The notes beneath the pieces are model-generated. The model was not told the DNA's origin. It did not search any database and was given only the letters and a program-made list of their open reading frames with translations. A stretch of DNA of 64,000 nt from Hyalangium gracile (GTDB lineage: Bacteria > Myxococcota > Myxococcia > Myxococcales > Myxococcaceae): NCBI RefSeq assembly GCF_020103725.1, contig NZ_JAHXBG010000009.1, positions 1 through 64,000 on the forward strand, in the 5' to 3' direction. Position numbers and translations under genes: made by a program. Positions within the stretch are counted from its first letter, which is position 1. Each line of letters opens with the position of its first letter. Shown here in pieces: positions 54,693-59,731 of this stretch.

Positions 54693-55967
54693 ATGCGTCT
54701 GTCGACCGTATCGAAGAGGGCCCTGTCCGGGCTGGCCGTGTCCCTGCTGATGGCGTGCCCGAAGAGCCCACCGGATGGGGACGATCCGAACAAGCCGTGC
54801 TCCAGCGGGGTGACGATGACGGCGGCCCAGGCGGCGCAGGAGAAGTTCGTCACCGTCGACAAGCCCATTCCGGGAGAGTTCATCGTCGTGCTGAAGGAGC
54901 CGGCGGCGGGGGTGCAGCCGCAGCCGGTGCAGGCGCTCTCGCAGCAGCTGACCACGCGGTACGGCGGCACCGCGTTCTCCCTGTACGAGCACGCGCTGCG
55001 CGGCTTCGCCAGCAGGATGACGGACGACCAGGCGAAGGCCATGTCCGCGGATACGGAGGTGGCGTACGTGCAGCAGAACCAGGTGGTCACGGCGTTCGAG
55101 TCGCAGCCCAACGCGACGTGGGGCCTGGACCGCGTCGATCAGCGCGACCTGCCGCTGGACAAGCAGTACAACTTCGGTGCCCGGGGCAAGGGGGTGCACG
55201 CGTACATCATCGACACGGGCATCCGCATCTCGCACAGCGACTTCGGTGGGCGAGCGGACGTGGGCTTCGACGCCATCAATGATGGGAACAAGGGCATCGA
55301 CTGCAACGGGCACGGCACGCACGTGGCGGGCACGGTGGGCGGCAGCACGTACGGCGTGGCGAAGGACGCGCTGCTCCACGCGGTGCGGGTGCTGGGCTGC
55401 TCTGGCTCGGGCTCGACGGCGGGCGTGGTGGCGGGCATCGACTGGGTGACGAACAACAAGCAGCTGCCAGCGGTGGCGAACATGAGCCTGGGTGGCGGAG
55501 CGGACCGGGCGATGGATGACGCGGTCCGCAGGTCGGTGGCGGCGGGCATCACCTACGTGCTCGCGGCGGGCAACGACAACAGGGATGCGTGCGGCAGCTC
55601 GCCGGCGCGCGCGGCCGAGGGCATCACGGTGGGGGCGACGACGAACAGCGACGGTCGCGCCTCGTTCTCCAACTATGGCGGGTGCGTGGACATCTTCGCG
55701 CCGGGCCACAACATCACCTCGGCGTGGCACACGGATGACGGGGCCAACAAGACGATCAGCGGCACGTCGATGGCCGCTCCGCACGTGGCGGGCATGGTGG
55801 CGCTGTACCTGGGGACGCGCACGGACGCCACGCCCAATGACGTGGCCAAGGCGATGACGGACAACGCCACGCCGGACAAGGTGGGCTCGGCGGGCAAGTG
55901 CTCGCCCAACAAGCTGGGCTTCATGGGCTTCATCGCGCCGGCCGCGCCTCCGCCCGCGGCGCTGTGA
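54693..55967 (+). CDS. S8 subtilisin-like serine peptidase (proteinase K-like), lipoprotein
   Basis: This 424-residue protein has a lipobox LLMAC (Cys22) and an inhibitor_I9-type propeptide (PGEFIVVLKEP, then YEHALRGFASRM and VAYVQQNQ). The peptidase domain has the triad Asp in YIIDTGI, His in NGHGTHVAG and Ser in SGTSMAAPHVAG. It should be a secreted protease that clears its own propeptide. The lipoprotein signal suggests it is attached to a membrane. A terminator hairpin follows. Confidence 0.92.
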   Translation: MRLSTVSKRALSGLAVSLLMACPKSPPDGDDPNKPCSSGVTMTAAQAAQEKFVTVDKPIPGEFIVVLKEPAAGVQPQPVQALSQQLTTRYGGTAFSLYEHALRGFASRMTDDQAKAMSADTEVAYVQQNQVVTAFESQPNATWGLDRVDQRDLPLDKQYNFGARGKGVHAYIIDTGIRISHSDFGGRADVGFDAINDGNKGIDCNGHGTHVAGTVGGSTYGVAKDALLHAVRVLGCSGSGSTAGVVAGIDWVTNNKQLPAVANMSLGGGADRAMDDAVRRSVAAGITYVLAAGNDNRDACGSSPARAAEGITVGATTNSDGRASFSNYGGCVDIFAPGHNITSAWHTDDGANKTISGTSMAAPHVAGMVALYLGTRTDATPNDVAKAMTDNATPDKVGSAGKCSPNKLGFMGFIAPAAPPPAAL

Positions 55968-56026: not shown

Positions 56027-56072
56027 CGAGCCCTCCGCGTTGACCTACGGTGGTGGGCGAGGAGGAGGCGAG

Positions 56073-56645
56073 ATGGCGCAGCGAATCCTGGTGGGCTTCA
56101 GCACCGTGCAGGGCCAGACGGCCAAGGTGGCGGAGCACGTGGCCCGGACGCTGCGGGCCGGCGGGGCGGAGGTGGACGTGCGGGATGTGGGCGAGATTCC
56201 GCGGGTGTCGCTCGCGGATTACGACGGTGTGGTGCTGGGGGCGAGCATCCACGTGAACCGGCACCAGCGCCGCATGGTGGAGTTCGTCCGGAGCCACCGG
56301 GAGGCACTGGCGGGCAGGCCCAACGCCTTCTTCTCGGTGAGCCTGACGGCCACGAGCGCCTCGGCGGAGCACCGGCGGCAGGCGGAGGCCTACGTGGAGG
56401 CCTTCACGAAGGAGACGGGGTGGAAGCCAGCCCGGGTGGCGCTGTTCGCGGGAGCCCTGCCCTTCACGCGGTATGGGTTCATCGTGCGCTTCGTCATGAA
56501 GCGCATCTCGCGGGCGAGGCTGGGCCCGCTGGACACGTCTCGCGATCATGAGTTCACCGACTGGGAGTCCGTGACTCGCTTCGCCGAGGAGTTTCTCCGG
56601 ACGCTCGGCGCGTCCGGGACGCAGCCCGTGGGGAAGGCCGGGTAG
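56073..56645 (+). CDS. HemG-like flavodoxin-domain protein
   Basis: This 190-residue protein has a flavodoxin_5 domain that starts RILVGFSTVQGQTAKVAEHV (phosphate loop) and continues with YDGVVLGASIHVNRHQRR, AFFSVSLTATS and LFAGALPFTRYGFIVRFVMK. These match HemG-type menaquinone-dependent protoporphyrinogen oxidase. It lacks the membrane domain of the gene at 9457. Its start at 56073 has GGAGGAGG upstream. It probably oxidises protoporphyrinogen IX for haem synthesis or acts as a related FMN oxidoreductase. Confidence 0.85.
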   Translation: MAQRILVGFSTVQGQTAKVAEHVARTLRAGGAEVDVRDVGEIPRVSLADYDGVVLGASIHVNRHQRRMVEFVRSHREALAGRPNAFFSVSLTATSASAEHRRQAEAYVEAFTKETGWKPARVALFAGALPFTRYGFIVRFVMKRISRARLGPLDTSRDHEFTDWESVTRFAEEFLRTLGASGTQPVGKAG

Positions 56646-56662: not shown

Positions 56663-56947
56663 TCAGGCTGGAAGGCGATGCACCTGGGGCGGCTCGGCGA
56701 TCCAGTCGTCGTGGATGTCGTGGAACGAGACCTCGCCTCGGGAGAGATCGACGAGGGCGAAGCAGGGTTCGTGGTCTCGATGGAGGGTGCCGGCGTTGAT
56801 GAGGGTCAGCCCTTCGATGGTCCGGACCATGCGTCGGTGGGAATGAGTCTCCAGCTCGCGCAGTAGCTCCACGGTGAAGAAGGGGAGCACGGCCGCGAGC
56901 GACACGTGCTCGCAGTGGATGTCACCGATGAGGCCAATCCGATTCAA
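56663..56947 (-). pseudogene. internally deleted metallophosphoesterase (YfcE-type) remnant
   Basis: The frame of 94 residues opens with the metal-binding start of a metallophosphoesterase, IGLIGDIHCE, and closes with HSHRRMVRTIEGLTLINAG, the end of the same fold. The central motifs GD, GNHD/E and the first GH are gone. An in-frame deletion of about 120-140 residues would explain this, so it cannot work as an enzyme. It uses a TTG start that overlaps the stop of the trypsin-like gene, at the end of the minus-strand operon. Confidence 0.65.
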
Positions 56948-57819
56948 GGAGACTCCATCTTCCGGGCTTGTTCGATCTGCCCTTCAATCCAATCACGGTA
57001 GCTGTAGGTGCTCGTGAACCAGGACTCTGGAGCACCCTGGCTGACATACCCGCTGCTGATCCCCACGAGCCAGCGGCTTCCATTCTCCTCGAGAAAGCAG
57101 GGAGCACCACTGTCACCAGGTCGTGCATGCGCGCCCGGGTGCCGGAAGCCTATCTCGTGCCCATTCGGATTAGAGGAGGATCGAAGCTCCGAGACAGTGT
57201 TCCTGCCCAAGCGACGCACGCCTCCATTGCTTCCGGTCGCGTCCGTGGTCCCGTACCCCACAAGGGTCAGCTCGTCATTGAGCCGGACCTCCTCGCGACT
57301 GAGCGTTCGGTCGACTCGAGTGTTTGCGAGAGGCCTCTCCAAGCGGACTACCGCGAGATCCGCCAGGCGATTCTTGACCAAGGTCCTGCCGCCCACGCCC
57401 TGAGTCTCTGCGCGAAACTCCGCGTGCACCACCACTGTGCCCTCGGATGTGTCCAGAATGGTCCGCGGCTCCTCCCCGGCTCGCTCATGGAAGGAGCTCA
57501 CGGCCATCGCCCTTCTGCCGCAACTCGCCTCCCCCTTCTTTGGGTCCATTCCACCTCCTGGAGGGCAGAAGCAGTGGGCGGCTGTCAGCACGAGCCGTGG
57601 AGCAACGAGGACACCGCTACAAAATCCCAGGTCGCTCCGGATCAGCACGACGGAGGAGTAGCGGTTGTCCTCATCCTTCCAGCGGAGAACCTGGCCCGAG
57701 TCCCCCTCAATGGAACGGGTACCAGCATCCGCGCGTCCACCACCACCGCCGCCGCCGCAGCTCGGCAGCAGCACGACGGCCAGCAGCAGGGGTACGGTCC
57801 AGACTCCATCTCGGAGCAT
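56944..57819 (-). CDS. trypsin-like serine protease lipoprotein (paralogue 1)
   Basis: This 291-residue S1-family protein has lipobox LLPSC (Cys21). The triad is complete: His82 in TAAHC, Asp154 in ADLAVV and Ser237 in GDSGAPC. It should be an active, membrane-attached protease. It is the last of three paralogues in a row, 14 bp after paralogue 2. The ATG at 57819 precedes the signal peptide; an in-frame ATG upstream would add unlikely residues. Confidence 0.87.
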   Translation of the reverse strand: MLRDGVWTVPLLLAVVLLPSCGGGGGGGRADAGTRSIEGDSGQVLRWKDEDNRYSSVVLIRSDLGFCSGVLVAPRLVLTAAHCFCPPGGGMDPKKGEASCGRRAMAVSSFHERAGEEPRTILDTSEGTVVVHAEFRAETQGVGGRTLVKNRLADLAVVRLERPLANTRVDRTLSREEVRLNDELTLVGYGTTDATGSNGGVRRLGRNTVSELRSSSNPNGHEIGFRHPGAHARPGDSGAPCFLEENGSRWLVGISSGYVSQGAPESWFTSTYSYRDWIEGQIEQARKMESP

Positions 57820-57833
57820 CCGACATCGCCCGT

Positions 57834-58709
57834 TCAATCCACTTCCGCCTTCTGGATACGCTCCGCGATCCATGCGCGGTAATGAAAGATGCTCGTGAAC
57901 ACGGAGATCGTACCTCCATTCGCATGACCGCTGTTGACTCCGACGAGCCAGCGTCTTCCTCGCTCCTCGCGGAAGCAGGGACCGCCGCTGTCCCCCTCTT
58001 GAGAGTGCGTTCCCAGCGCACGGAATGCGAACACGCCATTGCCGCCCGCCGCGAGTTGGATGTTCGTGACGACGTTGCGCCCGTAGCGACGACGTCCTCC
58101 CTGCTCTCCCTCAGGTCCGGTGGCTCCGTATCCCACCATGACCAGAGACTCATCGAGCTCAACCTCGGCCTTCGGCAACCGAACCTCGATTCTCATCCCC
58201 TCCACGGGCTTCTTCAGACGTACGACCGCCAGATCCGCCTCCAACGACACGACTCCTGCTTCTCGCATGCTCGCTTTGAAGGACGGGTGCGCGGAGGCCA
58301 GTCCTTGATACGAGCGAGGATGGCTCGTCACTGGACGCCGCGGGCCTGCTCCCACTTCATAGGTGTGGGCTGTAACGGTCACATCCACCGCGCAGTTCGA
58401 GGTGTCGATGGGACGCTCCGGGAGACCTTGGGTGGGCGGCAGACAGAGGCAGTGAGCCGCTGTCAGGACGAGACGCGGGGAGAGCATGACGCCGCTGCAG
58501 AGGCCTCGCTCGCTGGTGACGAGAACCGTCGTTCGATACCGGTTCTCCAGATCCTCCTTCGCACCGGAGAGCGTGAACTCGAAGCCAGGAGGCAGCGCGG
58601 AGGCATCCCCTTCAAAAGCAGCGGCAGTGCTCGCGGCGCATCCCTCCAGCGCACACAGCCACAGCAGAACAGACACCCATGGGAAAGAGTCCTTCCGGAA
58701 TCGGCTCAT
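57834..58709 (-). CDS. trypsin-like serine protease lipoprotein (paralogue 2)
   Basis: This 291-residue S1-family protein has lipobox LEGC (Cys24) and the complete triad: His86 in TAAHC, Asp159 in EADLAVV and Ser241 in GDSGGPC. GGAGGAG lies just before the ATG. It lies between paralogues 1 and 3 with gaps of 14 and 11 bp, so all three are co-transcribed. It should be active; its specificity cannot be read with confidence. Confidence 0.88.
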   Translation of the reverse strand: MSRFRKDSFPWVSVLLWLCALEGCAASTAAAFEGDASALPPGFEFTLSGAKEDLENRYRTTVLVTSERGLCSGVMLSPRLVLTAAHCLCLPPTQGLPERPIDTSNCAVDVTVTAHTYEVGAGPRRPVTSHPRSYQGLASAHPSFKASMREAGVVSLEADLAVVRLKKPVEGMRIEVRLPKAEVELDESLVMVGYGATGPEGEQGGRRRYGRNVVTNIQLAAGGNGVFAFRALGTHSQEGDSGGPCFREERGRRWLVGVNSGHANGGTISVFTSIFHYRAWIAERIQKAEVD

Positions 58710-58720
58710 GGGCTCCTCCT

Positions 58721-59731
58721 TCATGGGCCAGGCGGCTTGCTGCCCCGAGAGTCCTTCGCGCGCTGCAGCTCCGAATGCAGCCACGCCTCGTATGTGACGG
58801 TGCTCGTGCACACGAGTTCCCGATCCGCGCGGGCCCTCGCGACGCCGACCAGCCAGCGCCGCCCTTCTGCTTCGCGGAAGCACGGTCCTCCGTCGAAGCC
58901 GTTGTACGCGGCAGCCCCTTGCTGCTCGTATTGAATCCGTCCTCCTTCGGAGGGCGTGACCCCCACCACCTTGTTCTTGCGAGAGTAACGAACGCCGTGG
59001 AAGCCACCCACGATCTCATCATGGCCGTATCCCGCCATGACCAAGGCTTCGCCTACCTGGGCTTCATCCCTTGCAAGCAGAACCTCCGAGGCCTCCTCCT
59101 CCATGGGTTCATCCAGCACGATCGTGGCAAGGTCGGCCTGGCTTCTCACGACGAAGCCGCGTGGGTCCAGAATCAGCTCCAGGCTCGGATGAGGGCTGAC
59201 GGAGCCTGCGGACGTGTGGAACTGCATGTCCGTCGTCCTCTCCTTGAACCTGGGATTGCCTACCTCCCCATAGGCGACAGCGGTCACGAGAACCCGCTTC
59301 ACACATGACGACTTGTCCGCCCTGCTCTCCGCTCGAGCAATGGAGAGAGCCCCCTTTTCTCTCAGTGCGCAGACGCAGCTCCCCGCGGTCAGCACCAGGC
59401 GAGGCCCCAAGAGAACTCCACTGCAGTCCGGCAGAGCCATGGGGTCGTTCAGCGAGAGCATCACGACGGGCAGGTAGCGGTTCTGCACATCCATCTCGCC
59501 CGCGAATTGTCGGACGTCTGGTTGGGCAGGACCGAACTCAAACCCCTCCGCGCCAAGCTCGGTGGAGGGTGCCAGCTCTCCATTGACGGGCCGGGTACCA
59601 GCGAGGAGTCCTTCCACCGTCAGGCGAGACTTCTTCCCTGCTCCAGCCTCGTGTCCATCACAGCGACCACAGCCCAGCAGGCAGGTGAGGGCCACCACGC
59701 CAGGAAAAAGCCATCTTTGAGGGAGGGGCAT
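58721..59731 (-). CDS. inactive trypsin-like paralogue (pseudoprotease) lipoprotein
   Basis: This 336-residue protein is clearly related to its two neighbours (DVQNRYLPVVML, SGVLLGPRLVLTAG, ADLATIVL and GGPCFREAEGRRWLVGV segments), with a lipobox LLGC (Cys21). The catalytic His is Ser118 (TAGSC instead of TAAHC). The GDSGGP motif has become GFDGGP, so Asp280 replaces the Ser, while the Asp of the triad (Asp200) remains. It should not cut peptides. It is 45 residues longer than its neighbours, mostly before the domain. It may bind substrates or regulate the active pair (inference). Confidence 0.87.
   Translation of the reverse strand: MPLPQRWLFPGVVALTCLLGCGRCDGHEAGAGKKSRLTVEGLLAGTRPVNGELAPSTELGAEGFEFGPAQPDVRQFAGEMDVQNRYLPVVMLSLNDPMALPDCSGVLLGPRLVLTAGSCVCALREKGALSIARAESRADKSSCVKRVLVTAVAYGEVGNPRFKERTTDMQFHTSAGSVSPHPSLELILDPRGFVVRSQADLATIVLDEPMEEEASEVLLARDEAQVGEALVMAGYGHDEIVGGFHGVRYSRKNKVVGVTPSEGGRIQYEQQGAAAYNGFDGGPCFREAEGRRWLVGVARARADRELVCTSTVTYEAWLHSELQRAKDSRGSKPPGP

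Follow-up and report, generated by a model that had tools for sequence, protein, structure and literature searches.

The genes P1 and P2 of Hyalangium gracile appear to be one copy of a dispersed two-gene cassette. In the reading that we favour, and to which we give evenly balanced confidence, the second gene (B) would encode a probably active, lipid-anchored protease of the trypsin fold, and the first (A) a non-catalytic partner of the same fold that restrains or escorts it. Support for the partnership comes from the pairing of the genes, the loss of catalytic residues on one side, the parallel histories of A and B, the selection acting on catalytically dead A genes, and an asymmetry in gene loss. 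To our knowledge, partnerships between bacterial proteases and pseudoproteases are known from only a few systems. A literature search, with subscription papers mostly outside it, found no paper on these A–B pairs.

The window is the stretch of 64,000 nucleotides at the start of contig NZ_JAHXBG010000009.1. L-numbers and G-numbers are working labels of loci and genomes, respectively, G000 being the genome of the window. The residue numbers 57, 102, and 193–197 follow chymotrypsin and were assigned by alignment.

The P1–P3 locus

The original prediction placed three trypsin-fold lipoprotein genes at 56944–59731, and the ORFs, Pfam scores, and lipoboxes bear this out. The genes follow one another on the minus strand in the order P1–P2–P3 (Table 1), with gaps of 11 bp (P1–P2) and 14 bp (P2–P3), in agreement with the predicted spacing of 11–14 bp. 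All three proteins match the Pfam Trypsin model PF00089 (26.4, 63.3, and 65.7 bits for P1, P2, and P3; cutoff 20.6), and only trypsin models are found for them in Pfam, with no TauE, lectin, or other domain. Each carries a signal peptide and a lipobox cysteine, as called by a scripted sequence rule rather than a trained predictor. AlphaFold domain models of P1 and P2 (mean pLDDT 83.5 and 81.8) have trypsin-fold structures as their best PDB matches, with TM-scores around 0.6 and rmsd mostly 5–7.

The active-peptidase triad His57/Asp102/Ser195 is present in P2 and in P3 (H82/D154/S237, counted from the P3 Met), the two paralogues predicted to be intact, and absent from P1. The alignment places Ser118 and Asp280 of P1 at the positions of the catalytic His and Ser, as had been noted from its sequence, and Asp200 at that of Asp102, the triad positions of P1 thus reading S/D/D. 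A further change, missing from the prediction, is Phe279 in place of the conserved Asp194.

Table 1. Features of the P1–P3 locus and its borders, in window coordinates
Feature	Position	Strand	Basis
P1, pseudoprotease lipoprotein of A type (336 aa), opening the cassette	58721..59731	-	sequence, Pfam, tree
P1 lipobox Cys21 (LLGC), with a second Cys at +4 (CGRC)	59669..59671	-	rule-based call
P1 Ser118 codon, at the place of catalytic His57	59378..59380	-	alignment
P1 Phe279-Asp280 codons, at the place of Asp194-Ser195 (NGFDGGPC)	58892..58897	-	alignment
P2, B-type trypsin-like lipoprotein, triad H86/D159/S241 intact	57834..58709	-	Pfam, alignment
P3, second B-type trypsin-like lipoprotein, triad intact	56944..57819	-	Pfam, alignment
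D-Ala-D-Ala dipeptidase (Peptidase_M15), at one border of the insertion site, 13 bp upstream of P1	59745..60353	-	Pfam
Subtilase gene, at the opposite border of this site	54693..55967	+	Pfam

P1 starts only 13 bp behind the dipeptidase gene, so the transcription unit of P1–P3 may begin further upstream. Between the subtilase and dipeptidase genes there is also a plus-strand gene for a Flavodoxin_5-domain protein (56040–56645). It has no match at E 1e-20 in the genomes of seven relatives, in a search run without a positive control, and so is perhaps a recent arrival. An ORF of 94 aa on the minus strand (56663–56947) overlaps the end of P3 and resembles the final part of a calcineurin-like phosphoesterase (20.0 bits against a Pfam cutoff of 27); it looks like a gene remnant.

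Size and distribution of the family

The window genome gives 36 matches with P3 as the query and 34 with P1, some genes matching in two pieces, and 31 domain matches with the family profile. Tandem A-then-B arrays hold 27 of these 31 domains, which correspond to 13 scored pairs and P3. Together with its relatives, 128 family ORFs were recognised in 71 loci. The tree comprises 108 ORFs, including two long-branched outliers (L079 in G011 and L080 in G031); the 20 ORFs covering fewer than 190 of the 252 profile positions were excluded.

With the window's own genome counted throughout, the family is present in 7 of 39 relatives at E 1e-10 (G011 and G031 have single weak outlier matches), in 7 of 96 genomes of the Myxococcaceae at E 1e-25, and, when 195 genomes from the whole phylum are searched at E 1e-30, again in 7, all of them from that taxonomic family. 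Three of the seven genomes of the genus are positive (31, 47, and 32 matches) and the other four have none. The only search covering other phyla, a scan of one genome per species over 84,980 species with the dead-A alignment, a pattern-based method that may overlook divergent members, found seven loci in two genomes. These are Hyalangium versicolor H56D21 and a Myxococcaceae metagenome bin, both already in the set of relatives.

Pairing and one-sided loss of the active site

The A and B genes form largely separate lineages, the A/B label changing three times on the tree among the 86 rows that carry one. The gap from A to B is mostly −4 to 53 bp, with a 4-bp overlap in eight pairs and outliers at L034 (199), L071 (−20), and L078 (−32); by eye, the linkers have no conserved motif. 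Among the genes with a lipobox found, out of 43 of each type, Cys-x-x-Cys occurs at the lipobox in 26 of 41 A genes versus 2 of 40 B genes. Of the two B genes with the motif, inspection by eye shows one to be the second, A-type gene of L034, while the other hinges on the cysteine chosen. The locus L034 (2707–4939) is a tandem of two A-type genes, close to a contig end and with no B in the stretch read. Lysine at +2 after the lipobox cysteine, which would fit inner-membrane sorting as in Myxococcus xanthus (PMC3222651), is found in 11 of 41 A genes and 0 of 40 B genes; it was set aside as a feature of A, since P1 has Gly at this position.

Active-site residues were compared in 43 scored pairs from five genomes, scored where each gene of the pair covers the three catalytic columns (13 pairs in G000, 12 in G002, 12 in G006, 5 in G020, and 1 in G009). 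Partial-gene and single-gene loci lie outside this count, and some scored B genes are imperfect: that of L019 ends early, its match reading through a stop, and the one in L065 is missing the initial profile positions. The triad is intact in all 43 B genes versus 25 of the A genes, and Ser195 is kept in 43 versus 26. The GDSG motif is retained by 42 B genes and only 8 A genes, the sole B gene without it being the second gene of L034, which has GESG and groups with the A genes. Gly193 is likewise kept in every B gene, against 31 of the A genes; Ser, Gln, Asn, Glu, or His replaces it in the other 12. The eight A genes with both triad and GDSG may be active enzymes.

Fisher and sign tests on the 43 pairs overstate significance, as the sequences are related by descent. 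Counted as the fewest changes on the tree, Ser195 changed five times in A and never in B, the triad six times in A and never in B, and GDSG five times in A and once in B. Distances among the A genes and among the B genes on the tree are correlated (r 0.62, reached in 0 of 9999 permutations), a parallel that is also expected of any two linked genes duplicated together. One further pair, with GESGG in A and GDSGG in B, and one broken pair are found in a later genome, G040. A second A clade of six (L012, L013, L015, L051, L068, and L073) keeps Ser195 and has lost Asp194 (G-S-G-[EDA] type), a different route to loss of the GDSG site, and has a B clade of its own.

The clade of P1

P1 belongs to a clade of 22 A genes (SH-aLRT 100), aligned here in 21 rows with L042 left out. 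Gly193, Gly196, and Gly197 are invariant in all 21 rows, and residue 194 is aromatic throughout (Tyr in 13, Phe in 8). Residue 195 takes ten types (Ala 6, Thr 4, Asp 3, Asn 2, and Lys, His, Glu, Pro, Arg, and Ser 1 each) and is the 18th most variable of the 245 columns in the clade alignment. Residue 57 is Ser in 14 rows, His in 5, and Asn in 2, and the three members from G020 keep His57. The nearest relative of P1, the A gene of L057 (68% identity; 60% in a match over 319 aa), has Ser at 57 and Glu at 195. A loss order of 194, then 195, then 57 would fit this pattern.

The original prediction looked to conservation of Ser118 and Asp280 as a sign of a dedicated pseudoprotease. Ser at position 57 does predominate in the clade and recurs in L057, whereas Asp at position 195 is one of many residue types and is not shared with that relative. 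Relatives with intact triads had been named as evidence against such a role, and one clade member, L077, does have H/D/S; yet it carries Tyr194, and Ser195 is absent from the other 20 rows. The change in P1 goes beyond chance, as indicated by the clade of 22 similarly altered proteins and by the asymmetry between altered A and intact B over the 43 pairs.

Selection on catalytically dead A genes

Ratios of dN/dS were obtained with a scripted Nei–Gojobori method. Nine comparisons between dead A genes give 0.15–0.50, the highest value resting on few changes; for P1 and L057 the ratio is 0.15, at nearly saturated synonymous sites (pS 0.65). Five comparisons of B genes give 0.12–0.25 and four of other A genes 0.19–0.34. 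Where both compared A genes stand alone, the ratio is higher, at 0.34 and 0.45. The values for dead A show that these genes are retained as proteins under purifying selection. With one-sided loss and parallel A and B histories, this makes general what had been proposed for the window, that active-looking proteases are accompanied by a dedicated dead relative.

The dead A genes of L019 (3816–4874), L042 (3027–3956), and L065 (3896–5170), from three genomes, are 92–96% identical, against 58–84% for other copies, which suggests a recent transfer of this cassette. The B genes of the three loci all have incomplete ends.

Origin of the triple

The subtilase and dipeptidase genes adjoin in G002 (L098) and G020 (L097), with about 95 bp between the matches and no cassette. 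At the same site in G006 (L067) there is an A gene with 47% identity to P1 and a broken B with 63% identity to P3 over 142 aa. The dipeptidase and the genes upstream of it are present in G001, G003, G004, and G005; in these genomes the stretch read showed no subtilase, and no family gene was found. At another locus of G006, L057, a frameshifted B, 56% and 61% identical to P2 in its two pieces, lies beside the P1-like A.

Since P1–P2 resembles the L057 pair and P3 the B gene of L067, the A gene of an earlier pair at the site was probably displaced by a P1–P2-like pair, with P3 left behind. P3 would be a further B that joined the array in this way, and two proteases with one pseudoprotease, as first proposed for the window, are probably not a fixed unit. 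The longest direct repeats flanking the insertion are the gene copies themselves, with no clear terminal repeats.

Genes standing alone and broken partners

For nine full-domain A genes the stretch read contains no B, whole or remnant (L011, L014 at 12494, L032, L037, L039, L041, L044, L055, and L074). Three of the nine lack Ser195, and the rule finds no lipobox in those of L011, L044, and L055. Four other A genes (L051, L057, L067, and L072) stand beside a broken B; the B of L042, near a contig end and also without its first part, is left out of this count. No intact B without A was seen among the loci examined. The lone B-type ORFs are all defective or cut: L021 is a fragment, L070 has an altered triad (D/D/S, outside the 43-pair count) and a stop, L082 lacks a recognisable signal peptide, and L085 lies at a contig end. 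At L084 and L099 damage affects both genes, L069 has only an A, itself damaged, and L101 (G077), a lone gene of uncertain type, was left out of the counts. Independent loss events number fewer than 13, as some loci are orthologous (e.g., L011 and L055) and G002 is fragmented.

Possible roles of the A gene

In the favoured reading, B is judged from its residues to be a probably active trypsin-fold protease anchored to lipid, and A would be a neighbouring lipoprotein in which catalysis has been lost or is being lost. A would bind B, or the substrate of B, in the cell envelope and would mainly restrain or escort it; B alone would be useless or harmful, and A alone tolerated. We prefer restraint or escort because A occurs without B, whereas intact B was not seen without A. 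The support for restraint is this asymmetry, which comes in part from the fragmented G002. The nine lone A genes, including those without Ser195, show that A need not act on an adjacent B.

That intact B was not seen without A would also be accounted for if A were an obligatory activator or a folding or scaffold subunit of B, in which case B without A would be dead weight and not dangerous. The changes from Ser195 to Thr and at Gly193 in A genes, which are MamO-like, are in keeping with such a role, but the nine lone A genes are left unexplained unless they act in trans on a B elsewhere; we regard this role as quite conceivable, though unlikely. An unlikely reading, too, is that the cassettes form a diversified system of self/non-self recognition or competition. 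B would be an envelope protease harming cells that lack the matching A, and A an immunity-like pseudoprotease derived from that protease, the lone A genes being orphan immunities. The varying position of the former nucleophile would tune which B is held, and a spread of cassettes between sites would explain why matches number from 31 to 47 in three of the seven genomes of the genus, against none in the other four.

A could instead be a binding protein in its own right, with a disused cleft that holds a peptide or surface ligand (from prey, kin, or its own envelope) and with B a mere neighbour. Lone dead A genes under constraint, a highly variable residue inside the conserved active-site motif, and the presence of UmbA chains among the top structural and profile matches would suit this reading, for which UmbA, described as lacking the triad and binding UmbB (PMC11062931), is a precedent. 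The tight pairing of A with B and the fact that no lone intact B was seen argue against an independent binder, and UmbA is not specially close in sequence, its rank varying with the profile, while its lectin part is missing from P1, P2, and P3; we consider this reading quite doubtful. That P1 is a decaying pseudogene is extremely improbable. Both His57 and Ser195 are lost and residue 195 varies widely in the clade, but the dN/dS against L057 is low, the frame is open with signal peptide and lipobox in place, and the clade has lost Ser195 almost throughout while the flanking glycines never change. Random decay, the other pattern named at the outset as contrary evidence, is rejected for P1 and the dead A genes on the evidence of dN/dS, the open frame, and the invariant glycines, and the constancy of the aromatic residue at 194 likewise differs from it.

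Partnership between A and B, with restraint or escort as its main form, remains our preferred reading. One genome provides 13 scored natural pairs that differ in how far catalysis has been lost, some of them showing no detectable loss, in addition to lone A genes. The family allows a direct test of how an enzyme turns into the partner of its sister protein, and of whether partner specificity is bound to the pair. It also bears on which catalytic position goes first: in the clade of P1, residue 194 is aromatic in every row, while five members keep His57 and one keeps Ser195.

Comparison with known systems

Comparison of neighbouring ORFs revealed no gene common to most family loci. The largest cluster, from 10 loci and with a protein-kinase-like example, is not specific, and the ORFs may include shadow frames. 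A defence system was rejected as a candidate, the PADLOC matches being weak only (best LmuA, 22.9 bits for P3), and an NCBIfam search of the proteins gave nothing near cutoff. SitA and SitI are a linked toxin and immunity; SitA lipoproteins are transferred between cells by outer-membrane exchange. The sole features of the cassette relevant to this comparison are the lipobox and the asymmetry in gene loss.

In VMAP-type conflict systems, trypsin domains in the effector position are described as nearly all inactive, with decoy or dominant-negative roles proposed (PMC7159879); in contrast to the cassettes, these are domains of multi-gene vWA-MoxR systems. UmbA of Streptomyces is a secreted bacterial pseudo-trypsin used for binding, and its cleft is reported to hold an extended part of UmbB, uncut (PMC11062931). 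UmbA has a lectin domain and joins UmbB and UmbC, whereas P1 is a single trypsin domain with a lipobox beside an intact-triad relative; seven neighbouring genes in the window have no lectin or Umb-like match in Pfam, and two of them no match at all. Descent from UmbA found no support: UmbA ranks first with a mixed profile and fourth with a B-only profile and is absent from the ten matches of the dead-A profile.

MamO has a degenerate site (Thr at 195, Glu at 193) and is reported to activate, or be needed for, MamE-dependent proteolysis, and pseudoproteases of magnetotactic bacteria are described as having arisen independently in three taxa (PMC4794232). The likeness lies in a trypsin-fold pseudoprotease with a changed nucleophile and an active relative in the same gene island (PMC4794232), and the cassettes do contain a dead paralogue kept by selection beside one with an intact site. 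MamO and MamE differ in being HtrA-derived, with a TauE domain in MamO and a role in magnetosomes (PMC4794232), whereas the cassettes encode single-domain lipoproteins in up to 13 scored pairs per genome; no link of the cassettes to magnetosomes was seen. CspB, CspA, and CspC of Clostridioides difficile similarly combine one active protease and related pseudoproteases in a single transcription unit, and the pseudoproteases are proposed to restrain the protease (PMC6464247), but they are subtilisin-like and serve spore germination. By analogy, the cassette would work most like MamO/MamE and, in another fold, like CspB with CspA and CspC, as a member of neither system. What sets it apart from the known protease–pseudoprotease pairs is its occurrence as dispersed, multi-copy lipoprotein pairs with repeated one-sided inactivation.
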